DNA of 12,943 bases from NCBI GenBank assembly GCA_025928435.1, contig JAICJM010000110.1, positions 1-12,943 of the forward strand, read 5' to 3'. Below, one piece after another: positions 1,160-12,943 of the stretch. The position numbers and the translations under genes are program-made. The stretch comes from Thermoleophilia bacterium. GTDB lineage: Bacteria > Actinomycetota > Thermoleophilia > Gaiellales > JAICJC01. Every line of letters begins with the position of its first letter. Position 1 is the first letter of the stretch. Below the pieces are notes generated by a model. It searched no databases. It was not told the origin of the DNA and saw nothing but the letters and a program-made list of their open reading frames with translations.

Positions 1160-1194
1160 GGCGGTGGATGGGGGTTTCCACCCAATCCGCCGCC
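1160..1194 (+). terminator. Imperfect hairpin 14 bases after the stop at 1145
   Basis: Bases 1160-1173 pair with 1181-1194: 14 positions with one G-A mismatch (1170/1184), one T-G wobble (1165/1189) and a 7-base loop (GTTTCCA). It directly follows the stop codon of the anchored-protein gene, which suits a transcription end, but no T-run follows. GC-rich bacteria often end transcripts with such stems. It could instead be the first element of the structured leader of the downstream permease remnant. Confidence 0.4.
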
Positions 1195-1199
1195 CCGGC

Positions 1200-1228
1200 T
1201 TTACACGGCGCGGACGCCCTGCTGCGAT
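1200..1228 (+). promoter_or_regulatory. Weak promoter candidate and start of a structured leader before the permease remnant
   Basis: TTTACA (1200-1205) and TGCGAT (1223-1228) are separated by 17 bases; the -35 is good and the -10 poor. Two further short stems follow: CGATC/GATCG at 1225-1229/1237-1241, and CCCGGG-TTG-CCCGGG at 1249-1263. The latter abuts a GGGAGGGGGA ribosome-binding site (1261-1270), 8 bases before ATG 1279. The layout suggests an upstream regulatory leader, but I match it to no known riboswitch. Confidence 0.25.
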
Positions 1229-1278
1229 CGGGCCACGATCGAGCCGGCCCCGGGTTGCCCGGGAGGGGGAGAACGCGC

Positions 1279-2545
1279 ATGTCATCGAATCCGCCGCGCG
1301 GCTGGCCGCCGGCATCGGCGCCGTGCTCTACTGGGTGACGAACCCCTTCTGGGTCGGCGGGTCGCTCTGCTTCACGGCGACGGACGCGTGGAGCGCGAAC
1401 CTGCACTCGATCGGGAGCGGCACGGTCGGGCGACTACGCGTTCAAGCTCGTCTTCATCTGGATCTCGATCCTCGTCGCGATCGCCTCGCTGCGGCGGGGC
1501 AAGTGGATCCCGAACGCCGGCGCGATCGTGCGCTTCGTCGTCCTCATCTTCTTCGCCGTGACCGTGATCATCTACGCGGCCGAGCACGGCCTCCACGGCT
1601 ACGGCGCGAGCGACTTCAAGCCGACCTCGCAGATGTTCATCGCGCTCGTGCCGCTGCTGGTGTTCGCCTACGTCGGCTTCGAGCTCCAGAACGGCGCCGC
1701 GGAGGAGATGGAGAATCCGCAGCGCGACGTGCCCCGTTCGATCCTCTCGAGCGGCGCGATCACGGCGCTCGCCTACGGCGTCCCGATCCTCGGCATCGTG
1801 ACGGTGCTGCCGCAGACGAAGATCCAGGCATCAGCGGCTTCCTCGACGCCGTCCATCAGACCTTCGGCGTCTACGGCGGCGCCCAGGACTTCCTCACCGA
1901 CCTGATGGCGCTCGGGTTCATCTTCGCGCTCGTCACCTCCGGCGCCGTGTGGATGATGGGCTCCGACCGCATCCAGGCCGTGGCCGGCTACGACGGCGCG
2001 TTCATCGGCTGGTTCGGGGTCTTCAGCCAGCGGTTCGGCACCCCGGTGCGCGTGAACGTCATGTCGGGGATCACCTCGACCATCTTCATGGTCGCCGCCG
2101 TGAACCTCCTGCAGGGGAGCGAGGCGGCGGTCTTCGGCGTCGTGCTGAACATGGCGATCTCGACGACGCTGATGTCGTACCTGCTGATCTTCCCGGCGCT
2201 GATCAAGCTCCGCCGCGACTATCCCGATGTGTGCACCGCCCGTTCGTCGTGCCCGGCGGGAACGTCGGGCTGTGGGTCACGGGCGTCCTGTGCACCGCCT
2301 GGGCGCTGCTCGGCTCGTGGGTGGCGGTCTTCCCCGACACGCTCGAGCACCTGTTCGGCGCCGAGTACGACTTCCACTCCGTCTGGGGCGTGAGCCAGGC
2401 GCGGTTCGAGGTGTTCACGCTCGGGACGCTCGCGGTGGTGATCGCCCTCGCGCTGCTCGGGTACGTCCTCGGCGCCGACGTGCGCCGGCAGGCGGTCGAC
2501 GTGCCGCTGGTCGGGGGCGAGCGGATGGCCGACGACCCGGCCTAG
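1279..2545 (+). pseudogene. APC-family amino-acid permease, truncated and frameshifted
   Basis: Reading across three frames gives about 410 residues of an amino-acid/polyamine/organocation permease. Recognisable pieces are a helix around GAVLYWVTNPFWVGGSL (from about 1300), DYAFKLVFIWISILVA (from 1432), the family-typical EEMENPQRDVPRSI loop (1707-1748), a SGFLDAV...FGVYGG segment (from 1833), and a C-terminal part from 2234. Frame changes lie at an apparent extra G in GGG (1428-1430), an apparent missing G at 1827-1828, and an apparent 2-base duplication in GTGTG (2229-2233). Full-length relatives usually have 450-520 residues; helices 1-2 are absent. A well-spaced ribosome-binding site (1261-1270) and ATG 1279 remain, but that reading frame stops at TGA 1336-1338 after 19 codons. 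All flanking genes are intact. Either a decaying gene or local sequencing error; the missing N-terminus favours decay. Substrate unknown. Confidence 0.8.
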
Positions 2546-2557
2546 GAAAGATGGGTT

Positions 2558-2581
2558 CCCGGCCCCATTGCGGGGATCGGG
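2558..2581 (+). terminator. Small GC hairpin after the permease remnant
   Basis: CCCG (2558-2561) pairs with CGGG (2578-2581), and CCCC (2563-2566) pairs with GGGG (2572-2575), around a 5-base loop with small bulges. It begins 13 bases after the TAG at 2543-2545. There is no T-run. It may end the permease transcript. Confidence 0.25.
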
Positions 2582-2651
2582 CGGCGCTGGCAGCATCGGT
2601 GACGTCGTGTTCGAGGCCTCCGCAGCCGCATCCTGGCCCGGAGCGGATCTC

Positions 2652-3233
2652 GTGGCCGCCCGCTCGCTCGAGCGGATCACGCGCCGGCACCGGATCGCGC
2701 TCCTCGGGCTCGCCGCCGCGGCGCTGCTCCTCCGCGTCTCGCCCGTGGACGATCCCCGGCCCTTCGTGGTCGGGCTCATCGCGTTCAGCGGGCTCGCCGT
2801 GGCGATCGAGACCGCGATCGCCGTCTGGGCCCGCGACCGGCGCGACGCCCGCGCGGACGAGCTGATCGCCGCCGGGTTCGTCGTCTCGGGACGCGCCGAT
2901 CAGGTCAGCCGGGCGGTGGCCGAGCGGATCGACGCGCTCGAGTCCGCCCGGGCGCGCAGGCGGCTCGCAGGCAACCTCCGCTGGCACGTCGGCCTGGAGC
3001 GCGACCTCGTGTGCACGCGCAACACGTGCATCCCGGCCGTGCGGGGCTTCGCCGCGAACGCCGACCTGATCGAGCGGGCCGCCGCCGCGGTGGAGCGCGG
3101 ACCATGCGACCCCCGAGTGCTGGTGCGCCTCAACGAGCTGCTCGTCACGCCGTACGGGGGGAGCCGCGGCGCGGAGGGCATCCGCGAGGCGCTCGAGAGG
3201 GTCTGCGCGCTGATCGACCGCCCGGCGGCCTGA
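2652..3233 (+). CDS. Small two-helix membrane protein of unknown function
   Basis: I chose GTG 2652 because a GGAG (2640-2643) lies 8 bases upstream, giving 193 residues. In-frame TTG 2568 and GTG 2607 lack such a site but would extend it to 221 or 208 residues. After a basic N-terminus (LERITRRHR), two adjacent hydrophobic segments at about 14-28 and 38-59 form a probable helical hairpin. The rest is an Arg/Ala/Glu-rich, probably helical cytoplasmic domain of about 130 residues. Cys121 and Cys126 sit in CTRNTC, with further cysteines at 152 and 185; metal binding or a disulfide is possible but unproven. No family recognised. Its TGA (3231-3233) directly abuts the stop codon of the convergent kinase-lyase gene. 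Confidence 0.65.
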   Translation: MAARSLERITRRHRIALLGLAAAALLLRVSPVDDPRPFVVGLIAFSGLAVAIETAIAVWARDRRDARADELIAAGFVVSGRADQVSRAVAERIDALESARARRRLAGNLRWHVGLERDLVCTRNTCIPAVRGFAANADLIERAAAAVERGPCDPRVLVRLNELLVTPYGGSRGAEGIREALERVCALIDRPAA

Positions 3234-6149
3234 TCACCAGCCGGTCCGCAGCACCAGCTCGAGCTGCTCGGCGAAGAAGTCGGCGCTCTCCCGCGTGATG
3301 CAGAGCGGCGGCTTGATCTTCAGCATGTTGAGGTGGTCGCCGGTGGGCTGCACCACGATGCCGAGCTCGCGCATCCGCTCGCAGATCACCTCGGCCACCT
3401 CGGTCGCCGGCTCGCGCGTCTCGCGGCTCGTGACGAGCTCGACGCTCGCGTAGAGCCCTATCCCGTGCACGGCGCCGATGACCGAGTGCCGCTCGGCCAT
3501 GTCGCGCAGGCGGGCGAGCAGGTGCTCGCCGACGTCGCGCGCGTTCTCCTGCAGCCCCTCGGACTCGATCGCGTCGAGCACGGCCAGCCCCACCCGGCAG
3601 CTGACGGGGTTGCCGCCGGTCGAGGAGAAGAAGCTCCCCTGCGCCGCGAACGACTCGGCGATCTCGCGGCGGGTGATGACGGCGCCCAGCGGATGGCCGT
3701 TGCCCATCGCCTTGGCGACGGTGATCACGTCGGGCTCGACGCCCTGCTGCCGGAAGCCCCAGAAGTGGTGGCCCAGCCGGCCGTAGCCGACCTGGATCTC
3801 GTCGGCGATGCAGATCCCGCCCGCGGCCCGGATCGCGCCGTAGACCGCCTCGAGGTAGCCATCGGGGAGCAGGATGCCCCCGGCGTTCCCGTGCATCGTC
3901 TCGGAGATGAAGGCCGCCGGGACCTCGGCCCGCTCCTCGAGGCCGTGGATGACCGCGAGGGCGTCGCGGATGTAGGCCGGGCCGCTCTCCGGGCCACGGT
4001 GGGTGCCCGAGTAGGAGTTGGGCGAGTCGACGAGCCGCACCCACTCGGGCCGGGTCTCGAGCGCGCGCGGGTTGTCGGCGACCGAGGTCGAGATGGCGTC
4101 GGCCGCCATCGACCAGCCGTGGTAGGCCTCGCGCATGGCGATGACGATCTGGCGGCCCGTGTGCGCCCAGGCGAGGCGAAGCGCGACGTCGTTCGCCTCG
4201 GTGCCGCTGTTCACGAGCACCACGGTGTCGAGGCCGTCGGGCGCGAGCCCCGCGAGCCGCTCGCAGAAGTCGGCCACCGCGGCGTAGTTGAAGCGGGAGT
4301 TGGTGTTCAGGAGCCGCGACTGGCGGGCGATCGCGGCCGCCACGCGCGGATGGGCGTGGCCGAGCACGGTCACGTTGTTCACCATGTCCAGGTAGACCCT
4401 CCCGGTCGCGTCGACCAGGTGGTGGCGCCATCCGCGCTCGATCTGGGGCGGGTCGGCGTAGTAGTGCGGCTGGACGCGCGCGAAGGCCCCGTCGCGGCGT
4501 GCGAACACGCGTCGGGCGTCGACGTCCGGCGCCGCGCACTCGATGCCGAGCAGTGGCGACGGGTCGGGGCAGATGCGCCGCCACGCCGCCGCGGCGGAAG
4601 GGGTCGCGAACGCGGGCGGATCGGCATCGGGGGCGAGGCAGAGCTGGACGCGGATCCGGCCCCGGCCGCCCGGATTGCCCGCAACCGCGCCGACGGGGTC
4701 GCCGGACGCGACGCGGTCGCCGGTCTTCACCGACGGGGCGACCCCGTCGAGCTGCACGGTCGCCTCGCCGCAGAGGATGAGCAGCCGCTGCGGCGATGCC
4801 TCGACCACGACGCCGGCGGCGGGCGCGGCCACGGCGCGGCCGGCGGCGAGGCCGACCTCGGCGTGCAGGGCGCACGTGGCGGGCTCGTCCGCGCGGTGCA
4901 CGGCGGCGCGCGTCAGCCGGTGCTCGCCGTAGCGGGCGAGCGCGACCGGCGCCCCCCACTCCGCCTCCGCGAAGGCCGCGCCCTCGGTCCCGCGATCGAG
5001 CCAGCGGCCGTCGTCCAGCGCCTCGCCCGTCGCCGACAGGTCGACGACCGCGACCCGGTCGGCGGCCAGCCCGGACACCACCGGCGCGAGGCTCGGCACC
5101 GCCAGGTCGCGGCCCGGCAGGCCCAGCGCCTGGTGGATCGCCGCCTCCGCGACGGCCCACGGGAGCGCCGCCGCCGACTCGAAGATGACGAGGTCGTTCT
5201 CGAGGTTCCCGGCGACGTAGTCGTTCTGGGGGTCGAGCGCGAGCTGCCGCTCGTCCGCCGCCACGAGCGTGGCGCCGCGCAGGACGACCAGCGGCCAGAG
5301 GGCGGCGACGTCGGCCTCGTCGAGCGGCACCACGGAGTGGAAACCGGCGACGGCCGGGAGCCAGCCGAGCGGGTCGCCGCCCATCTGGTGGAGGATCGCG
5401 GCGCAGGTGACCGCGAGCTCGGAGGCGACCCAGCTGCGGGTGATGTCGCCGAAGTCGATCAGCCCTGAAGGCCATGCCCGCCCGTCGGCTCCGATCTCGC
5501 CGACCACGTTGTCGCCGGTGACGTCGCCGTGGATCGGGGCGATGCGCAGGTCTGCCTCGACCCGCCCGAGCCGCTCGCACGCGGCGGCGGTCACCGCGAT
5601 GAGCCGCTCCCGCCGGGCCGGATCGACCACGTGCGGCGCGAACGACGCAACGACCGCCTCGGCGTGGCGCAGATCCCATTCCAGCCGGCGGTCGAGCCCC
5701 GGCGCGTCGAAGCCGGCGAACGCCCGGCACGCGGTCGCGGCCAGGTGCCCGAGCCGTCCGCGCACGGCCGGGGAGAGATACCCGAAGCCGGCGAGCGCCG
5801 TGCCTTCGAGGAAGGTGAGCAGCCGGACGCGGACGTCGGCGTCGCCGACCCGCGCCCGCTCGAGCGTGGCGCCACTCCGCGCCGGGCACGGGCGGGGCAC
5901 CACCACACCGCCGCGCGCGAGATGCTCCATGGCCGCGTTCTGGCAGACGAGCTGCACCTCCGGGACGGCCGGGTTCGCGATCTTCAGGACGTAGCGGCCG
6001 TCGGCGGCGTCGATGCGGAAGTTGCGGTCCTGCTGGCTGCCGAGCTCGGTGGTCGACCCTGTGACGCCGAACACGGCTTCGGCGACGCCGGCCGCCTGCT
6101 CCAGGCTGACCTCGGGAGGTTCCGTCTCGGCGGTTGCGAACGTCGCCAT
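3234..6149 (-). CDS. Fused APH-type kinase / degenerate LytM domain / class-III aminotransferase-fold phospholyase
   Basis: 971 residues in three parts. Residues 1-335 are an aminoglycoside-phosphotransferase/hydroxylysine-kinase-like domain: Lys56 in VLKI, catalytic loop HGDVTGDN (207-214), metal motif IDFGD (231-235). Residues about 400-525 resemble a LytM/M23 beta-barrel, but the zinc ligands are not recognisable. Residues 545-971 are a class-III PLP enzyme: SGTEAND (648-654), Asp783 in ADEIQVGYGR, Schiff-base Lys813 in AKAMGNGHP, GGNPVSC (845-851). From memory the last third closely follows human ETNPPL/PHYKPL, which eliminate ammonia and phosphate from phosphoethanolamine or phosphohydroxylysine, and bacterial kinase-lyase fusions of this type are known. 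Predicted role: phosphorylate an amino alcohol, then eliminate. Start ATG 6149 has GGGGG 7 bases upstream; ATG 6191 (14 residues longer) lacks a site. Divergent from the catabolic and transport run; substrate not determined. Confidence 0.88.
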   Translation of the reverse strand: MATFATAETEPPEVSLEQAAGVAEAVFGVTGSTTELGSQQDRNFRIDAADGRYVLKIANPAVPEVQLVCQNAAMEHLARGGVVVPRPCPARSGATLERARVGDADVRVRLLTFLEGTALAGFGYLSPAVRGRLGHLAATACRAFAGFDAPGLDRRLEWDLRHAEAVVASFAPHVVDPARRERLIAVTAAACERLGRVEADLRIAPIHGDVTGDNVVGEIGADGRAWPSGLIDFGDITRSWVASELAVTCAAILHQMGGDPLGWLPAVAGFHSVVPLDEADVAALWPLVVLRGATLVAADERQLALDPQNDYVAGNLENDLVIFESAAALPWAVAEAAIHQALGLPGRDLAVPSLAPVVSGLAADRVAVVDLSATGEALDDGRWLDRGTEGAAFAEAEWGAPVALARYGEHRLTRAAVHRADEPATCALHAEVGLAAGRAVAAPAAGVVVEASPQRLLILCGEATVQLDGVAPSVKTGDRVASGDPVGAVAGNPGGRGRIRVQLCLAPDADPPAFATPSAAAAWRRICPDPSPLLGIECAAPDVDARRVFARRDGAFARVQPHYYADPPQIERGWRHHLVDATGRVYLDMVNNVTVLGHAHPRVAAAIARQSRLLNTNSRFNYAAVADFCERLAGLAPDGLDTVVLVNSGTEANDVALRLAWAHTGRQIVIAMREAYHGWSMAADAISTSVADNPRALETRPEWVRLVDSPNSYSGTHRGPESGPAYIRDALAVIHGLEERAEVPAAFISETMHGNAGGILLPDGYLEAVYGAIRAAGGICIADEIQVGYGRLGHHFWGFRQQGVEPDVITVAKAMGNGHPLGAVITRREIAESFAAQGSFFSSTGGNPVSCRVGLAVLDAIESEGLQENARDVGEHLLARLRDMAERHSVIGAVHGIGLYASVELVTSRETREPATEVAEVICERMRELGIVVQPTGDHLNMLKIKPPLCITRESADFFAEQLELVLRTGW

Positions 6150-6182
6150 GTCTGTACCCCCGGCGCTGCGAGGGGCGTGGGA

Positions 6183-6212
6183 GGTATCCATGACGGTCGA
6201 CAGTCTACTCAA
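6183..6212 (-). promoter_or_regulatory. Candidate promoter of the kinase-lyase gene
   Basis: On the minus strand TTGAGT (6212-6207) is followed by GGATAC (6189-6184) after 17 bases, or GATACC (6188-6183) after 18. Transcription from here would leave a leader of about 25-30 bases before ATG 6149, which supports that start over ATG 6191. The -10 match is only partial. Confidence 0.3.
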
Positions 6213-6240
6213 GCCCCGGCCTCGCCCGACCCCGCATCGG

Positions 6241-6246
6241 TACGCT
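6241..6246 (+). promoter_or_regulatory. Candidate -10 element of the methyltransferase operon
   Basis: TACGCT fits the actinobacterial TANNNT -10 pattern and is preceded by CGG. It lies about 38 bases before ATG 6284. No convincing -35 is visible 17 bases upstream, so this is tentative. The 134-base space between the two divergent genes is where a shared regulator would bind, but I see no clear palindromic operator. Confidence 0.22.
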
Positions 6247-6283
6247 GCCACGCCGGAGCCGTGAACCACCCAAGGCGGACCGC

Positions 6284-7393
6284 ATGAGCCAGATCTTCCT
6301 GCCCAACACCCGGCGCTCGCCCTACCACGCCGCCACCGAGGCTGCCGGAGCGACGGAGTACATGGTCTACAACCACATGTACCTCCCGCTCGACTACGGC
6401 CGCCCGCCGATGGAGGACTACCGCGCCCTGCGCGAGGCCGTCACGCTGTGGGACGTGGGCGGCGAGCGCCAGGTGCAGATCCAGGGGCCCGGCGCGGTCG
6501 CCTTCGCCGACTACCTCGTCACCCGCGACCTCACCGACCTCGCGACCGGCCGCTGCCGCTACGTGCTGGTCGCCGACGAGGCGGGCCGGGTGATCTGCGA
6601 CCCGGTGCTGCTGCGGCCGTTCGACGACACGATCTGGCTCTCGCACGGGAGCGTCGACCTGCTCCTGTGGGTGAAGGGCATCGCGCTGCACACCGACCAC
6701 GATGTGCGCGTCACCGAGGCCGACGTGCCGCCGCTCCAGCTCCAGGGCCCCAACTCGCGCGACGTGCTGCGCCGGCTGGTGGGCGATGCGATCGACGAGC
6801 TCGCCTACTACGACTGCCGCGAGATGGAGGTCGCGGGCGTGCGCGTGATCGTGTCGCGCACCGGCTGGAGCGGCGAGCTGGGCTACGAGCTCTATCCCCA
6901 GGGCTCCGCCGGGGCACCGGCGGTGTGGAACGCGCTCGTCGAGGCGGGCGAGCCGAGCGGGCTCCTGATCACCGGCCCCAACGTGCCGCACGCGATCGAG
7001 TGCGGCATCACCGACTGCCAGTACTACACCAACTTCGAGGTGAACGCCCTCGAGTTCAGCCCGCGGCTGGTCGACCTCGACAAGCGGGCGTACATGGGCC
7101 GCGACGCGCTGCGCGAGATCGCAGGGCAGGGCGTGCGGCGGCGCACGATCGGCCTTCTGGGCGGCCCCGAGCGCCTGCCGCGGCTGCAATGGGCGTGGAC
7201 GGCCCACCGCGGCGGAGAGCAGGTCGGCCGGCTGCGCTGGGCGGCGTACTCCCCGACCCTCGAGCGGATGATCGCCGTCGCGCTGATCGATGCCGAGCAC
7301 GCCGACCCCGGCGTCACCCTGACGATCCGCCACCACGCCGGCGAGGCCGAGATGACGACGACCACGCTGCCGTTCATCCCGCGCAAGGCCTGA
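6284..7393 (+). CDS. GcvT/DmdA-like tetrahydrofolate-dependent methyltransferase
   Basis: 369 residues, the size of DMSP demethylase DmdA and of GcvT aminomethyltransferases. Family hallmarks: LQGPNSRDVLRRL (153-165), SRTGWSGELGYELY (191-204, the GcvT RTG-x-x-GE-x-G signature) and RLVDLDK (261-267). The stretches YRALREAVTLWDVGGERQVQ (46-65), DPVLLR (106-111) and LLLWVKGIAL (126-135) look closer to DmdA than to glycine-cleavage T protein. Where GcvT has an Asp pair (IDD) and DmdA, as I recall, NDP, this protein has CDP (Cys105-Asp106). Such enzymes pass a methyl or methylene group from an N- or S-methyl compound to tetrahydrofolate. No glycine-cleavage partners are nearby, so a dedicated demethylase is more likely. 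AAGG (6272-6275) precedes ATG by 8 bases. The stop overlaps the next start by one base (TGATG). DMSP activity is not claimed. Confidence 0.85.
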   Translation: MSQIFLPNTRRSPYHAATEAAGATEYMVYNHMYLPLDYGRPPMEDYRALREAVTLWDVGGERQVQIQGPGAVAFADYLVTRDLTDLATGRCRYVLVADEAGRVICDPVLLRPFDDTIWLSHGSVDLLLWVKGIALHTDHDVRVTEADVPPLQLQGPNSRDVLRRLVGDAIDELAYYDCREMEVAGVRVIVSRTGWSGELGYELYPQGSAGAPAVWNALVEAGEPSGLLITGPNVPHAIECGITDCQYYTNFEVNALEFSPRLVDLDKRAYMGRDALREIAGQGVRRRTIGLLGGPERLPRLQWAWTAHRGGEQVGRLRWAAYSPTLERMIAVALIDAEHADPGVTLTIRHHAGEAEMTTTTLPFIPRKA

Positions 7394-8409
7394 TGAGGCT
7401 CGAGATCCTGTTCCTCTCGGGCGACGACGTCGGCCGGCTCGAGCCGGCCGATGCCGACGTGCTGGAGGCGGTCGAGGCCGGTCTGCGCGCGCACGGCAAC
7501 GGCGAGGTCGTGCTTCCGCCGAAGAGCCACCTCTCGCTGGAGGAGCGCTACGGCGGGCACTTCAACATCCTGCCCGGGTATGTCGGCGGCCTCGACGTCG
7601 CCGGCATCAAGACGATCGGCGACTACGCCCACAACCACCGCCACGCGCTGCCGTCGGAGATCGCGCTGCTCACGCTCTACCGGGCCGAGACCGGCGTCCC
7701 GTTCGCGATCCTGGACGCGACCAGGCTGACCTGGATGCGCACGGGCGCGGTCACGGCGATCGGCGCGCGGCACCTGGCGCGACCCGACAGCCGGGTGCTC
7801 GGCCACATCGGCGCGCGCGGGACGGCCCGCTACAACCTGCGCTACCTGGCGGGCCTCTTCGACCTCGACGAGATCCGCGTGACGAGCCGCCGGCCCGAGT
7901 CGCGGGCGGCGTTCGCGCGGGCGATGTCCGAGGAGCTGGGCCGCGAGGTCGTCGCCGTCGACACTGCCGCCGAGGCGATCGACGGCGCGGACATCATCGT
8001 CGACGCGTCGCGCCTCACCGAGCCGGCGGTGCTCGTGCCCACCGCCGCCGTCGAGCCCGGGGCGCTCGTCGTCCCCTACGGCGCCGTCATGTCCACCGGC
8101 GCGGACCTGCCCGCGGCCGCCGACAAGTTCGTGGTGGACGACTGGGAGCAGGCCGCGCGCGGGGAGTTCGGCCAGTACACCGGGATCATCCGCGCCGGCG
8201 AGTTGCGCCGCGAGCACCTGTACGCCGAGATCGGCGAGATCGTGACCGGCCGCAAGCCCGGCCGCGAGCGGCCCGACGAGCGGATCGTCTTCTGGCACCG
8301 CGGCTTTGCGATCAGCGACGTGATGCTGGGCAACCTGATCTACGAGCGCGCCGTCGCCTCCGGCGTCGGCAGCCGGCTGGCCTTGCAATCGGCGGCGTAC
8401 GAGCTCTGA
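7393..8409 (+). CDS. Ornithine cyclodeaminase/mu-crystallin-family protein
   Basis: 338 residues, starting at ATG 7393 within TGATG, so translationally coupled to the methyltransferase. Family features: Lys73 in GIKTIG, Arg116 in MRTGAVTAIGARHLAR (115-130), a Rossmann region beginning VLGHIG (135-140) and a VVD-x-W segment near 247-251. Characterised members are NAD-dependent ornithine cyclodeaminases, alanine dehydrogenases, ketimine reductases and opine-type enzymes. Two departures: the dinucleotide loop reads GARGTAR where most relatives have GAGVQAR, placing Arg142 at the second glycine; and the VVPYGAVMSTGADLP segment (226-240) lacks the GD(C/A)PG sequence that carries the catalytic Asp of true ornithine cyclodeaminase. 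It probably acts on another amino or imino acid from this pathway, or is a reductase. Confidence 0.85.
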   Translation: MRLEILFLSGDDVGRLEPADADVLEAVEAGLRAHGNGEVVLPPKSHLSLEERYGGHFNILPGYVGGLDVAGIKTIGDYAHNHRHALPSEIALLTLYRAETGVPFAILDATRLTWMRTGAVTAIGARHLARPDSRVLGHIGARGTARYNLRYLAGLFDLDEIRVTSRRPESRAAFARAMSEELGREVVAVDTAAEAIDGADIIVDASRLTEPAVLVPTAAVEPGALVVPYGAVMSTGADLPAAADKFVVDDWEQAARGEFGQYTGIIRAGELRREHLYAEIGEIVTGRKPGRERPDERIVFWHRGFAISDVMLGNLIYERAVASGVGSRLALQSAAYEL

Positions 8410-8412
8410 CCC

Positions 8413-9273
8413 GTGGCCGCCGAGCGCACCTACGACATGCACCAGCACCTGTGGCCGCCGGAGGTGCTGCGGGAGCTGGCCCGCCGCACGGAGCCGCCGT
8501 GGGTTCGCGACGGCCACTTCCAGGGGCCGGGCCTCCCGCCGCTCGCGCTTCCGCCGGGTTGGGACGACCTCGACCAGCGCCTGGCCTGGCTGGACGAGGC
8601 CGGCATCGACGTCGCCGTCGTCTCGCTCTCGCCCACCGACTGCTTCGACGAACCGCTGACGGAGCTCTGGCACGGGGGGATCCTGCGGATGGCCGGTGCG
8701 TCGAACGGACGGATCGTGCCGCTGGCCTCCGGCCGCCGCCGCGCGGGGTTCGCGGGCGTGACGGTCGCCGCAGACGCGCTCACCGCCGGCCTCGGCCCGC
8801 TCCCAGCCGAGCTCGCGGCCGCCGGGGAGATGCTGTTCGTCCATCCCGGCAGGGCGGCCCGACCGCCCGAAGGCGTGCCCGGCTGGTGGATGGGCGCGGT
8901 CGACTACTGCGCCCAGATGCAGCGGGCCTACGTCGCCTGGCTCGCCCGCGACGCCGCCGCCCATCCCGGCCTCGCCGCGGTCTTCGCGATCCTCGGCGGC
9001 GGGGCGCCGCTCCTGGCGGAGCGCTTCCACGCCCGCGGCGCGCGCATCGACCTGCAGGAGCACCCGAACACGGTCGTGGACTCCGCGTCCTACGGCCCGG
9101 CCGCGATCGGCCAGTTCATCGGGATGCATGGGACCGCCCACCTGGCGCACGGGAGCGACGCGCCGGTGCTCCACCACTGCGCCGCGGCGGCCTGCCTGCG
9201 CGGCCTCGGTGGCTCCGTGTTCCACGAGGCCGCGACGGGGACGCCCGGCCGGCTGCTCGGGCACCTGCGCTAG
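8413..9273 (+). CDS. ACMSD-type amidohydrolase (amidohydrolase_2 family)
   Basis: 286 residues from GTG 8413, three bases after the preceding stop. A metal-binding start DMHQH gives His10 and His12 (HxH), His144 lies in LFVHPGR and Asp249 in HGSDAP; together these match the metal ligands of the ACMSD/amidohydrolase_2 TIM barrel. Known relatives are non-hydrolytic decarboxylases (ACMSD, gamma-resorcylate decarboxylase) or lactone/amide hydrolases. The usual HGGG motif, whose His is catalytic in ACMSD, reads LGGGAP here (194-199), so Leu194 replaces it. The family is usually 290-340 residues, so this one is slightly short. Likely cytoplasmic and co-transcribed with the two genes before it; probably a late step (ring, lactone, amide or C-C cleavage). 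Reaction unknown. Confidence 0.82.
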   Translation: MAAERTYDMHQHLWPPEVLRELARRTEPPWVRDGHFQGPGLPPLALPPGWDDLDQRLAWLDEAGIDVAVVSLSPTDCFDEPLTELWHGGILRMAGASNGRIVPLASGRRRAGFAGVTVAADALTAGLGPLPAELAAAGEMLFVHPGRAARPPEGVPGWWMGAVDYCAQMQRAYVAWLARDAAAHPGLAAVFAILGGGAPLLAERFHARGARIDLQEHPNTVVDSASYGPAAIGQFIGMHGTAHLAHGSDAPVLHHCAAAACLRGLGGSVFHEAATGTPGRLLGHLR

Positions 9274-9334
9274 CGGCCGGGGACGCCGTGCCGGGCTTGC
9301 GTCATGTGGGTATCGATGAGATCGTCTCGCCTGC

Positions 9335-9366
9335 GGCCGGGCCGACACGTCCCGAGGGGCCCGGCC
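9335..9366 (+). terminator. Perfect 9-bp GC hairpin in the gap before the transporter genes
   Basis: GGCCGGGCC (9335-9343) pairs perfectly with GGCCCGGCC (9358-9366) across a 14-base loop. It sits 61 bases after the amidohydrolase stop and about 100 bases before the binding-protein start. No T-run follows. It could terminate the enzyme operon, or attenuate transcripts reading into the transporter. Confidence 0.4.
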
Positions 9367-9390
9367 ACCTCATGACCGGCATGGGACCTA

Positions 9391-9419
9391 TTGTGCATCG
9401 CTTTGGTGGAGAATATCGC
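9391..9419 (+). promoter_or_regulatory. Candidate promoter of the ABC transporter operon
   Basis: TTGTGC (9391-9396) and TATCGC (9414-9419) are 17 bases apart, in the least GC-rich part of the 196-base gap. Transcription would start near 9426, leaving a leader of about 45 bases with the GGAGG site at 9457-9461. The -10 matches only in its first three bases. Confidence 0.28.
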
Positions 9420-9469
9420 TACCATCGTCCCCCACCTCGCCACACTTTTCAACACCGGAGGAACGCCTC

Positions 9470-10603
9470 GTGAGCACGACCCAGGATCCGTTCACTGATT
9501 CATTGACCCGGCAGGCACTGCTGCAGCGTGCCGGGGCCGGGGCGCTGGGCCTCACGGCCGCATCGCTCCTCGCCGCATGCGGCTCCGGCGGGGGCTCCGG
9601 GTCATCGTCGCCCGGCGGCTCGGGCGCCCAGGCGATCACCGGCCAGGCGGTCCTCAGCAACTACCCCGGCTGGATGGGCAAGAACAACCTGTCGGCGTTT
9701 GCCGCGAAGTACCCGGGCGCATCGATCAAGATGATCTCGAACGCCACCTCGAGCTCGGCCGAGGTCGTGCAGCAGTTCAAGAGCAAGCAGTACGACTTCC
9801 TGCTCTCCGACACGACCGACTCGGGCCAGGCCTCGGCGGCCGGGTTCACCTCGCCGCTCGACTTCTCGAAGATCCCGAACATCAAGAACATCGACGCGAA
9901 GTTCCGCAAGTCGTATCCATGGGGCCTTCCCACCGACTACGGCAAGGTCGGCATCGCCTACCGCCCCGACCTCGTCGGCAACGCGACCATCGAGAGCTGG
10001 CACGACTTCTGGGAGCTGATCCCGCGGTACTCCGGCCAGACCATCTTCATCGACCTCGAGCGCGACTGCATGGGCTCGACCTGCAAGTACCTCGGCTTCT
10101 CGTCGAACACCACCGACCCCGACGAGATGAAGAAGGTGCAGGACACCATCGTGGCCGTCAAGCCGCACCTGAAGGCGTTCCTGAACACCAACGTCGGCGC
10201 CGGGCTGGTCAACGGCTCGACGGCGATGGCGATGGACTGGGACTACGACGTCGCCCTGCTCCAGCAGAAGAACGACAAGATCAAGTGGGTCTTCCCCTCC
10301 GAGGGCGCGCACGCCTACCTCGAGGGCTTCACCGCGGTGCAGGACACCAGCAAGCTGGCGGTGGTGGAGGCGTTCCTGAACTTCCTCGCCGAGCCGGCGC
10401 AGTACGCCGACTTCGTCAACACCACCGGCACTGCGTACATGATGTCGTCAGCGACCCCGCTCATCAAGAAGACGATCTCGAAGAACCCGATCCTCGTCCC
10501 CACCTCCGAGGTGCTCGACAAGACCGAGTTCGACAAGTACCTGGGCGCTGACGGGACCACCCTCTGGTCGAACACGTGGGAAGCAATCAAGAACGCGTCA
10601 TAA
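9470..10603 (+). CDS. Polyamine-type ABC transporter substrate-binding lipoprotein
   Basis: 377 residues; GTG 9470 has GGAGG (9457-9461) 8 bases upstream. The N-terminus is a lipoprotein signal: RQALLQRAG, a hydrophobic stretch, then lipobox LAAC with Cys37, followed by a Gly/Ser-rich linker (about 38-54). Only single arginines occur before the hydrophobic core, so a classical twin-arginine motif is absent. The mature part has PotD/PotF-family features: YDFLLSDT (about 104-111), WGLPTDYGKVGIAYRPD (about 150-166), DLERDCMGSTCKYLGFSSNT and a late AYLEGF segment. The family binds spermidine, putrescine and similar cations, and related proteins bind other amines. The protein should be tethered outside the membrane and deliver ligand to the permeases encoded next. 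Codons here (AAG, AAC, TTC) look optimised for strong expression. Ligand not predictable by eye. Confidence 0.9.
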   Translation: MSTTQDPFTDSLTRQALLQRAGAGALGLTAASLLAACGSGGGSGSSSPGGSGAQAITGQAVLSNYPGWMGKNNLSAFAAKYPGASIKMISNATSSSAEVVQQFKSKQYDFLLSDTTDSGQASAAGFTSPLDFSKIPNIKNIDAKFRKSYPWGLPTDYGKVGIAYRPDLVGNATIESWHDFWELIPRYSGQTIFIDLERDCMGSTCKYLGFSSNTTDPDEMKKVQDTIVAVKPHLKAFLNTNVGAGLVNGSTAMAMDWDYDVALLQQKNDKIKWVFPSEGAHAYLEGFTAVQDTSKLAVVEAFLNFLAEPAQYADFVNTTGTAYMMSSATPLIKKTISKNPILVPTSEVLDKTEFDKYLGADGTTLWSNTWEAIKNAS

Positions 10604-10620
10604 CCCCCGGGCTCATCCAG

Positions 10621-10653
10621 GCGCCGCCTCCCCCGTCCGCGGGGAGGCGGCGC
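10621..10653 (+). promoter_or_regulatory. Perfect 13-bp hairpin between binding-protein and permease genes
   Basis: Bases 10621-10633 pair without mismatch with 10641-10653 over a 7-base loop (CGTCCGC); TTCGATTT follows. It begins 17 bases after the TAA at 10601-10603. It looks like an intrinsic terminator or processing stem that lets the binding protein be made in excess over the membrane parts, as in many binding-protein operons. The 3' arm contains GGGGAGG (10641-10647), the only ribosome-binding-like sequence before the likely permease start at TTG 10660, so the fold would also hide that site. Confidence 0.65.
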
Positions 10654-10659
10654 TTCGAT

Positions 10660-11499
10660 TTGCGCGGCCTCGAGCGCCAGGCGCTGCTCCTGCCGACGCT
10701 GGTGATCACGACGCTCTTCTTCGTCGTGCCGCTGGGACTGATCACCCTGTACTCGTTCGGGTCGATCAACCAGGTCAACTTCGACGTCTACTTCGGCTGG
10801 ACGACCCAGAACTACCGCGAGTTCACGTCGTCGCTCTACGTGCACACGCTGCTGCGAAGCGTGGTGCTCTCGGTGTCGGCGACGCTGGCCTGCGGCGTCC
10901 TCGGGTTCACGTTCGCCTACTTCATCAGCCGCCAGCCACCCAGGGCCCAGCGGCTGCTGCTGGTGGCGGTGATCGTCCCGTTCTGGACGAGCTTCATCGT
11001 GCGCACCTACTCGTGGGTCGACCTGCTGCAGAACCTCGGCCCGGTCGACCGGTTCGCCCGCGCCCTCGGGCTGGACGGGCACATCAACATCCTCTACACC
11101 CAGTGGTCGATCGGCATCGGCATCGTGTACTCGTACCTGCCGCTCATGATCCTGCCGATCTACGTCTCGCTCGAGCGGATCGACCCCGCGCTCTTCGACG
11201 CGTCCGCCGACCTCGGCGCCACGCCCTGGAGGCAGTTCCGGCGGGTTGTCTTCCCGATGGCGCTCCCGGGCCTCATCGCGGGCATCATCATCGTCGGCGT
11301 GCCGGCGCTCGGCGAGTACGTGATCCCCGAGATCCTCGGCGGCGGCAAGACGTTCATGGCCGGCAACATCCTCGCCGACCAGTTCCTCCAGACCGGGAAC
11401 TACCCGTTCGGCTCGGCGCTCGCGGTCAGCGTCATGGTCGTGCTGCTCCTGTTCCTGTTCCTGCTGCGCCGCGCCCAGCCCGAGGCGGACCCGCGATGA
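10660..11499 (+). CDS. potB: ABC transporter permease, PotB type
   Basis: From TTG 10660 this is 279 residues, about the size of PotB. Hydrophobic segments at about 8-31, 64-89, 98-117, 148-169, 201-220 and 252-270 give the six helices of the family. The ATPase-contact EAA loop is at about 178-203 ([12 protein letters not shown]...LP). The same frame is open upstream to GTG 10576, which would add 28 residues (including APPPPSAGRRR) and overlap the binding-protein gene by 28 bases. I prefer 10660 because the extra stretch contains the perfect hairpin 10621-10653 and GTG 10576 has no ribosome-binding site. The TTG site has GGAGG at 10643-10647, but 12 bases away, so the start is uncertain. The stop overlaps the next start (ATGA, 11496-11499). 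Gene symbol by family and order only. Confidence 0.85.
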   Translation: MRGLERQALLLPTLVITTLFFVVPLGLITLYSFGSINQVNFDVYFGWTTQNYREFTSSLYVHTLLRSVVLSVSATLACGVLGFTFAYFISRQPPRAQRLLLVAVIVPFWTSFIVRTYSWVDLLQNLGPVDRFARALGLDGHINILYTQWSIGIGIVYSYLPLMILPIYVSLERIDPALFDASADLGATPWRQFRRVVFPMALPGLIAGIIIVGVPALGEYVIPEILGGGKTFMAGNILADQFLQTGNYPFGSALAVSVMVVLLLFLFLLRRAQPEADPR

Positions 11500-12329
11500 G
11501 CATCCGCCGGCACCCGTTCGCGGCGTCCCTCAGCCTGCTGATCCTGATCTTCCTGTGGCTGCCCCTCGTGGTCGTGGCCGTGAACTCGCTCAACTCCGAG
11601 ACGCTGATGGCGAGCTGGGGCGGGTTCACGACCCACTGGTTCCGGATGGCGTGGGGCGATGAGAACGTCCGCTCCGGCCTGCGCACCACCCTCCTGATCG
11701 CCGTGGCCTCGTCGCTGCTCTCGCTCGTGGTCGCGGTCTCGGGCGCGCTCTGGTGGCGGCACGCGTCGCCGAAGGCGCGGGCCGTCTACGACGGGCTGAT
11801 CTACGCCCGCATCATCCTGCCCGAGGTCGTCTTCGCCACCGCGATCTTCTTCCTCTTCATCAAGATCCACTTCGGCCTGGGGCTGACCGCGATGATCATC
11901 GGCCACACCGTCTGGAACTCGGCCTACGCGGCGATCATCGTCCAGGCCCGCATGGCGGGCCTCGACCCGGCGCTCGAGGAGGCCGCCGCCGACCTCGGCG
12001 CCACGCCCTGGCGCACGTTCCGGCGCGTGACGCTCTCGGCGCTGATGCCGGCGATCATCGCCGCCGGGCTGCTCGCGTTCACGTTCTCGTTCGACGACCT
12101 GGTCACGTCCTTGTTCCTGCAGGGCACCGCCCAGTCACCGCTGCCGGTGGTCATCCTGGGCATGATCCGGTTCCGGATCACCCCGGAGATCAACGCGATC
12201 GGCCTCCTGGTGATGCTGTTCACCGTGGCCATCATGAGCTTCGCCGTGATCTCGTACGCCACGGCCGGGGCGGTCGGGCGGTCGAGCCGGCGTGGCGGTG
12301 GAGGATCGATGCTGGACATGTACCGATGA
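11496..12329 (+). CDS. potC: ABC transporter permease, PotC type
   Basis: 277 residues, starting at the ATGA overlap with the preceding permease, so translation is coupled. Hydrophobic segments at about 11-30, 63-87, 100-124, 130-150, 184-208 and 233-258 give six helices. The EAA loop is at 160-185 ([12 protein letters not shown]...MP), and [14 protein letters not shown] (197-210) resembles the PotC SLDDFV region. It would form the heterodimeric membrane channel with the PotB-type protein. The C-terminus ends in a short Arg/Gly/Ser-rich tail (261-277). The stop overlaps the ATPase start (ATGA, 12326-12329). Its EAA-loop DNA shares a 26-base identical stretch with the neighbouring permease gene. 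Confidence 0.9.
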
Positions 12330-12943
12330 GCGACCCGGCCGTCGACCTGCAGGCGGTGGAGAAGCGCTTCGGCGACCTCGTCGCCGTGCGCCACCTCGAC
12401 CTGCGGATCCAGCCGGGCGAGTTCTTCTCGATCATCGGGCCGTCCGGCTGCGGCAAGACGACCACGCTGCGGATGATCGCGGGGTTCGAGGATCCGACGT
12501 CCGGGACCATCTCCGTCGGCGGGCGTGAGATGACCGGCGTGCGGCCCTACCGGCGGCCCGTCAACACGGTGTTCCAGAGCTACGCCCTGTTCCCCCATCT
12601 GGACGTGTTCGAGAACATCGCGTTCGGCCTGCGCGAGGGCAAGGTCAGGAAGGCCGAGGTGCGTGCGCGGGTCGCCGAGGCCGTGAGCCTGGTGCAGCTC
12701 GAGGGCCGGGAGAACGCGCGACCGCGACAGCTCTCCGGCGGCCAGCAGCAGCGGGTCGCCCTGGCGCGCGCCCTGGTCAACCGGCCCGAGGTGCTGTTGC
12801 TGGACGAGCCGCTGGGGGCGCTCGACCTGAAGCTGCGCACCGACATGCAGACCCAGCTCAAGGATCTCCAGCGCAGCGTCGGGGTGACGTTCTGCTACGT
12901 CACGCACGACCAGGGCGAGGCGTTCTCGATGTCCGACCGCATC
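12326..12943 (+). CDS. potA: ABC transporter ATP-binding protein, PotA type, partial (C-terminus off the window)
   Basis: The first 206 residues of the nucleotide-binding domain are present. Walker A is GPSGCGKTT (38-46), the Q-loop glutamine is Gln84 in FQSYALFPH, the ABC signature is LSGGQQQR (136-143), Walker B is LLLDEP (157-162), the D-loop LGALD (163-167) and the switch histidine His194 in THDQGEAF. All catalytic motifs are intact. PotA-type ATPases carry a C-terminal TOBE-like domain after about residue 235, which would lie beyond the window. It should energise uptake through the two permeases. The start is fixed by the ATGA overlap. THDQGEAF replaces the common THDQEEAL, a minor variant. 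Confidence 0.93.

Follow-up and report, generated by a model that had tools for sequence, protein, structure and literature searches.

Adjacent catabolic and transport genes in a Thermoleophilia bacterium are probably independent units, one of them a GcvT-OCD-ACMSD-fold operon

Do genes that lie side by side, and whose families would all suit the use of a single nitrogen compound, serve a single pathway? The question is raised by positions 3234-12943 of a G+C-rich contig from a Thermoleophilia bacterium, analysed here within a window of 12,943 nucleotides (the whole stretch of DNA). In this window a kinase-phospholyase gene (hereafter the fusion) is followed by genes for a GcvT/DmdA-like protein, an OCD/mu-crystallin family protein, an amidohydrolase-like ACMSD-fold protein (AMH) and an importer with its substrate-binding protein (SBP), all of which an earlier note on this DNA had assigned to one route of amine catabolism. 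Comparison with related genomes leads us to a different reading. The stretch is probably a juxtaposition of independent units and not one pathway: a kinase-phospholyase gene beside a broken permease gene, a GcvT-OCD-ACMSD-fold operon, and a polyamine-family importer.

Families were assigned by Pfam and NCBIfam profile scans, with gathering or curated cut-offs applied. The closest relative among the genomes compared is Thermoleophilia bacterium isolate GZL_FP_2_bin.148 (G002, the source of locus L008), whose fusion contig is referred to as L160. The features of the window, with the evidence for each, are as follows.

1164..2545, + strand: broken amino-acid permease gene (alignment with the intact G002 gene, L160:14569-16224; AA_permease_2 family in the intact relative)
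2568..3233, + strand: uncharacterised protein, encoded convergently to the fusion (G002 has a 73% identical copy next to its own fusion)
3234..6149, − strand: kinase-phospholyase fusion (APH kinase PF01636, M23-like middle, class III aminotransferase-fold PF00202)
6150..6283, no strand: divergent gap between the fusion and the GcvT-like gene (blastn synteny ends inside it, with G002 at 6212 and with G198 at 6208)
6284..7393, + strand: GcvT/DmdA-like, predicted tetrahydrofolate-dependent methyl- (or methylene-) transferase (GCV_T PF01571, GCV_T_C PF08669)
7393..8409, + strand: OCD/mu-crystallin family protein (OCD_Mu_crystall PF02423)
8413..9273, + strand: predicted ACMSD-fold metal enzyme of the amidohydrolase superfamily (AlphaFold model, Foldseek, profile alignment)
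9470..10603 (the start could be 9503), + strand: PotD/PotF-family substrate-binding lipoprotein (PF13416; 82% orthologue in G002)
10576..11499, + strand: ATP-binding cassette (ABC) permease, PotB-like (family profiles)
11496..12329, + strand: ABC permease, PotC-like (family profiles)
12326..12943, + strand: ABC ATPase, PotA-like, cut by the window end (family profiles)

All of the gene types named in the earlier note are present, on the agreement of open reading frames and family scans, and it was right that nothing unrelated separates them, as gene calling finds no other gene between. Every named gene has an open frame, that of the ATPase running past the end of the window. The fusion (−) is transcribed divergently from the GcvT-like, OCD-like, AMH and importer genes (all +), and a gap of ∼196 bp lies between the AMH and SBP genes. 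In a single pathway, a methylated amino alcohol or hydroxylated amino acid would be imported, demethylated to tetrahydrofolate, phosphorylated and deprived of its ammonia, and the OCD-like protein and amidohydrolase would finish its breakdown. The unbroken adjacency of the genes speaks for such a route, and the divergent gap of ∼134 bp between the fusion and the GcvT-like gene would allow a shared regulator; furthermore, the permease to the left of the fusion is broken, and its role could have passed to the ABC importer.

The nearest genomes point the other way. By blastn, the window matches L160 at 1-809 (86%), 1028-1298 (79%) and 1299-6212 (88%), with a gap at 810-1027 and a jump at 1298. 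The shared part comprises a metallo-beta-lactamase-fold gene, the gene at 390-1145, the permease gene, the gene at 2568-3233 and the fusion. Past 6212, that is, within the gap between the fusion and the GcvT-like gene, L160 matches the window only in an ATPase gene. Synteny with a second genome, G198, is limited to 3234-6208 and 1-371, corresponding to the fusion and the metallo-beta-lactamase gene. On the other side of its fusion, G002 encodes a HutI-like amidohydrolase, an HpaB-like hydroxylase and a Pot-like importer distinct from that of the window; inspection by eye adds an IclR regulator, an M20 peptidase and an amidase. The G002 orthologue of the window's importer (binding protein 81-82%, permeases 80-83%, ATPase 90%) is on a separate contig (C60), divergent from two CocE/NonD-type genes (one of them profile-scanned), and no GcvT, OCD or AMH gene was found within the 20 kb read around it. 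With the importer orthologue on C60 and synteny ending at 6212, the fusion and the importer therefore each keep other company in the nearest genome.

Could the join at ∼6212 be an artefact of assembly, the contig having fused two unrelated stretches? The ends of synteny with G002 and G198 lie 4 bases apart, which would suit an artificial join, and no second record is shown to span it, though an identical AMH protein (P0122) occurs on a second contig. However, synteny ends just upstream of the fusion start, where the similarity of conserved genes often ends. The fusion and operon genes are similar in G+C content (0.72-0.77; importer genes 0.65-0.70, as in G002), and an orthologue of the right-hand importer, at 80-90% identity, is present in G002 as well, so both sides of the join fit one lineage. 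We consider such an artefact very unlikely.

The distribution of the genes was then surveyed in 399 genomes of the class of G001. The fusion is present in 18 of these (E 1e-100 or better), a GcvT relative in 18 (1e-60; best 57%) and an amidohydrolase relative in 84 (1e-8; best 46%); a class-wide amidohydrolase search at E 1e-66, a threshold tighter than the best known match (8.3e-66), gave 0 of 392 and is therefore uninformative. The fusion search scored only 2 candidates per genome; each of the 21 places that it listed was read together with broader flanking DNA (365 kb in total), some on short contigs of 4-11 kb. None of the 21 has an OCD, AMH or SBP relative, or a lyase-like or cysteine-dioxygenase-like gene. 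One (L160) has relatives of the window permeases, which are those of G002's other importer. The partners of the fusion vary: those recognised by eye were amino-acid permeases (L160, L166) and a deacetylase-like gene paired with a solute symporter (L162, L163). Conversely, 80 GcvT loci (L004-L083, 1.38 Mb) were read, and among the matches listed none has the fusion's kinase, the AMH or the SBP; a single one (L020) has an OCD relative, ∼8 kb away in a separate gene group. As identity is at most 57%, the GcvT genes of these 80 loci are relatives, not orthologues.

The GcvT-like, OCD-like and AMH genes, by contrast with the fusion, belong together and are a real operon. The stop codon of the GcvT-like gene and the start codon of the OCD-like gene share one base (TGATG), and the AMH gene follows after a spacing of 3 bases. 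Among database proteins, nine of 77-93% identity are the nearest GcvT relatives, and four of them are on contigs longer than 9 kb (35096, 25545, 15359 and 307507 bases, that of 25545 bases carrying P0007). Three of these sizes recur among the AMH relatives, namely 35096 (P0003/P0129, 71%), 307507 (P0009/P0132, 68%) and 15359 (P0008/P0143, 60%); because the exact base counts are identical and the sources match, the GcvT and AMH relatives are almost certainly on the same three contigs. The co-occurrence to which the earlier note had looked for a check is thus supported for the GcvT-like, OCD-like and AMH genes, for which the earlier reading is upheld in part, and is mostly missing for the fusion, where a single pathway is not upheld given the synteny break and the rarity of shared neighbourhoods. 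Among the papers listed by a literature search covering few subscription journals, none was seen to describe the full gene set or a GcvT-OCD-amidohydrolase set.

Several observations weigh against the independence of the units. Distant relatives of the two are neighbours elsewhere: in 2 of the 21 fusion loci (L222 and L231), 0.8 and 1.3 kb separate the fusion from a gene for a GcvT-type protein, which also counts in favour of one pathway. These fusions are 39-41% identical to that of the window, and for the one in L222 the best-scoring model is PRK06148 rather than PRK06149. Their neighbour is a 659-residue protein (L222:5807-7786, L231:5355-7334) whose GCV_T domains lie in the C-terminal half and which shares ∼30% identity with the GcvT-like protein of the window; its best models are GcvT and trimethylamine N-oxide (TMAO) demethylase, and it scores below the cut-offs of both. 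A common promoter and newly acquired co-regulation are also possible for divergent genes. The orthologue-level test of the fusion side comprises G002 and G198 only, and the compared genomes hold no orthologue-level operon locus, the best matches being 57% for GcvT, 56% for OCD and 46% for AMH. Finally, the three recurring contig sizes do not occur among the 120 fusion relatives listed, but as a sign of independence this absence is weak, as most clusters show one contig and the window's own record is likewise not visible in the fusion and GcvT listings. Taken with the evidence above, these points leave the single pathway unlikely, and the juxtaposition of independent units the probable reading. 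In both L222 and L231, a small uncharacterised gene lies between the gene for the 659-residue protein and the PRK06148-like kinase-phospholyase gene.

What, then, might the operon do? The GcvT-like enzyme would move a methyl (or methylene) group from a methylated substrate to tetrahydrofolate, the OCD-like enzyme would then act on the freed amino or imino acid, and the ACMSD-fold metal enzyme would carry out an isomerisation, hydration or hydrolysis, not a decarboxylation of the ACMSD type.

The GcvT-like protein resembles the DmdA/T-protein family (DmdA, LigM, DesA, SesA, BrdA) in possessing GCV_T and GCV_T_C domains and the invariant residues D98, W195 and E202, which are identical in 23 of 23 aligned sequences (window included). 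It differs in falling below the cut-offs of the DmdA, GcvT, TMAO demethylase, DesA and LigM models; the best NCBIfam model, DmdA (NF009133), gives 253.6 bits against a cut-off of 410, and the T-protein model (NF001567) 140.7 bits against 300. The groups used by tetrahydrofolate-dependent relatives include S-methyl, O-methyl and methylenedioxy ones (PMC5547118), so that the earlier proposal of demethylation to tetrahydrofolate is plausible, whereas its restriction to a methylated N or S is too narrow.

A more specific possibility is that the GcvT-like enzyme is a true demethylase of dimethylsulfoniopropionate (DMSP), and the operon a terrestrial variant of DMSP utilisation. The preference for the DmdA model would agree with this. 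The best solved match of the protein is 3tfh (E 3.8e-49), which we take to be the DmdA structure, and W195 aligns with W197 of 3tfh, presumably a DMSP contact. A tryptophan numbered W171 in the alignment of PMC7487153 is named there as DMSP-specific. However, the score of 253.6 bits stays below 410, and W195 does not set DmdA apart from these relatives because it is identical in all 23 aligned sequences. There are also no genes of a coenzyme A (CoA) pathway here, whereas relatives of 41-42% identity on two Roseobacter plasmids adjoin enoyl-CoA hydratase and acyl-CoA synthetase genes. We therefore regard a DMSP demethylase as extremely unlikely.

Matches to the GcvT-like gene occur in 739 plasmid records; the three that were read (H1, H5 and H6) all show other settings. 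In H1 and H5 the relatives adjoin genes for Lrp, OsmC, enoyl-CoA hydratase and acyl-CoA synthetase; in H6 the neighbours are folate genes, and 4-5 kb separate the relative from a Pot-type importer. Separately, some GcvT-like relatives lie beside a gene for a SnoaL/NTF2-like protein (L191:10479-11986, L006:1235-2800, L008:243-1726, L009), and many GcvT relatives in the database are GcvT-SnoaL fusions of ∼497 residues.

The OCD-like protein matches PF02423 with 204.4 bits (gathering threshold 24). It aligns over its full length with the OCD/mu-crystallin family (alanine dehydrogenase, pyrroline-2-carboxylate reductase, EutC), with 6t3e and 1vll/1omo as its best solved relatives. Enzymes of the OCD superfamily act on ketimines in NAD(P)(H)-dependent reactions (PMC4113996). 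In contrast to these relatives, the nucleotide motif of the window protein is altered: in an alignment with 6t3e, 1omo and 4m54, the GxGxxA-type motif, IGAGVQA in 6t3e and IGCGTQA in 1omo, is replaced by IGARGTA. The form G-[AS]-R-G-T-[AS] is common to the window and 10 of 10 aligned relatives (11 of 11 in all; L173 and L001 gave no row). A role in ectoine utilisation was considered and rejected, as the EutC model TIGR02992 gives 144.1 bits against a cut-off of 471.65; no other eut family was found among the ten window proteins scanned.

Most relatives of the OCD-like gene that were read adjoin a histidine-ammonia-lyase-like gene, and the window operon has no such gene. All ten OCD matches of the order (129 genomes) were read, and eight have the lyase-like gene within 129 bases (L173, L175, L186, L216-L219, L221); the two without it are L215 and L220, the OCD gene of L220 being at the contig end. 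The same pair of genes is found at the Leisingera locus L020. The four lyases scanned score 297-383 bits against the HutH cut-off of 539.15; they are thus lyase-like, with HutH identity unproven.

For the AMH, no Pfam match, Amidohydro_2 (PF04909) included, was found at E up to 10 (the HMMER filters drop most matches above 0.1), and a 66% relative (P0133) stays below the gathering threshold of Amidohydro_2 (24.3 bits against 26.4). An AlphaFold model built from 39 sequences has a mean pLDDT of 93.1, and its top solved fold in Foldseek is ACMSD (TMq 0.78). The likeness to ACMSD and isoorotate decarboxylase is one of fold, with TMq 0.73-0.79 at 17-20% identity in the first 30 rows of the search. 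The ACMSD zinc ligands His9, His11, His177 and Asp294 are matched by the putative metal ligands H10, H12, H144 and D249, of which H10 and H12 are kept in 38 of 39 sequences (one gap each) and H144 and D249 in all 39. The position of ACMSD His228, placed by alignment to isoorotate decarboxylase, is Ile193 in the window and hydrophobic throughout the 39 AMH sequences (I 33, M 2, V 2, F 1, L 1). In ACMSD, the H228A change lowers decarboxylation 142-fold and keeps oxaloacetate tautomerisation (PMC11650718), for which reason a non-decarboxylating reaction of the AMH is more likely.

Twenty of the top 23 AMH places were read (all but ranks 12, 17 and 18). A small cysteine-dioxygenase-like gene (PF05995 in the one scanned) lies within 57 bases of the AMH relative in 16 of the 20 (L172, L173, L175-L178, L180, L182-L190), a lyase-like gene within 2.3 kb in ten, and an OCD relative within 3.5 kb in three. 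The operon may thus belong to an undescribed catabolic network, marked by the remodelled OCD cofactor motif and the AMH without the decarboxylase histidine. Substrates in keeping with the lyase-like and cysteine-dioxygenase-like neighbours of the relatives would be histidine or aromatic amino acids in N-methylated, perhaps also thiolated, form, for example hercynine or ergothioneine; we put this whole reading forward as speculative and unlikely. At only 36-56% identity to the window proteins, the AMH and OCD relatives may serve another pathway than that of the window.

Does the importer serve this operon? Its binding protein, two permeases and ATPase are each best matched by a Pot-type model, and it shares family and best models with PotABCD. 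Identification as the PotABCD spermidine/putrescine importer was nevertheless rejected, the scores being below the cut-offs for PotD (85.4/582), PotB (211.5/348) and PotC (160.5/326); in the binding protein, ligand contacts seem only partly kept if the PotD residue numbers are as we take them to be. The earlier inference that the importer family implies a cation does not hold, as the family does not fix the ligand, the PotD score is low against its cut-off, and the G002 orthologue stands beside CocE/NonD hydrolases. In 3 of 5 genomes (L211:6500-14418, L191, L213), importers of this type have CocE-like genes no more than 3 kb away; none was found in L212 (a whole contig of 6575 bases) or L214 (where only a binding-protein relative is present). 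These CocE/NonD neighbours, which are X-Pro peptidase-like, suggest peptide- or ester-like ligands there, not polyamines.

Pot-type importer genes also occur near other GcvT relatives (L031, L101, L191, L003). In an Actinobacteria metagenome-assembled genome (L031:9977-15371), the GcvT-like gene is directly followed by a Pot-type ATPase gene and importer, and in L101 a Pot-type ATPase gene adjoins the GcvT relative. In G154, a genome of the family of G002, 4-6 kb separate a 50% GcvT relative and an importer that is 53-72% identical to the window's, and this interval contains a CocE-like gene and, by eye, oxygenase-like genes. A tie of this importer to the GcvT-OCD-AMH operon is plausible; set with other genes in a close relative, it may feed the operon here.

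On the other side of the synteny break, the fusion scores 1314.7 bits with NF004800 (PRK06149-type; cut-off 973) over residues 4-972, and no essential difference from PRK06149-type fusions was seen. The phospholyase domain, at the C-terminus, has human ETNPPL (6tor) and a bacterial phospholyase (5g4i) as its nearest solved sequences and aligns with both over its length, in which it resembles ethanolamine-phosphate phospho-lyase. It keeps the stretch before MGNGHP with the lysine that we take to bind pyridoxal phosphate. The middle of the protein (window 4518-5165, −) gives a sub-threshold match to Peptidase_M23 (PF01551; 19.4 bits against 28.7) and is probably not catalytic. The fusion would phosphorylate a vicinal amino alcohol, and its second domain would split the phospho-ester into an aldehyde, ammonia and phosphate; from the full-length alignment of the phospholyase domain with ETNPPL and the bacterial enzyme, we infer ethanolamine as the most likely substrate. 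The fusion protein is 87% identical in G002, the protein database holds an 87% relative from a 'Gaiellales bacterium', and relatives of ∼50% identity are common in Rhizobium.

The permease gene at 1164-2545 is 91% identical to its intact G002 counterpart over 1395 aligned bases, and has lost ∼268 bp near 1298 and gained frame shifts near 1429, 1827 and 2230 (+1, −1, +2). A general sequencing error is unlikely to explain this, as the fusion and operon genes are full-length; if real, the damage represents the loss of the fusion's neighbouring transporter in this lineage. The reverse is seen for the gene at 390-1145, which is open in the window and whose match in G002 (L160:16243-16699) is shorter and split over frames.

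Few catabolic pathways have, to our knowledge, been studied in Thermoleophilia. The present locus shows how a gene row that resembles one pathway separates once orthologous loci are compared, which corrects a tempting pathway reading. What emerges from it is an operon with two enzyme subfamilies bearing altered catalytic motifs, whose substrates can now be sought directly, in Thermoleophilia.

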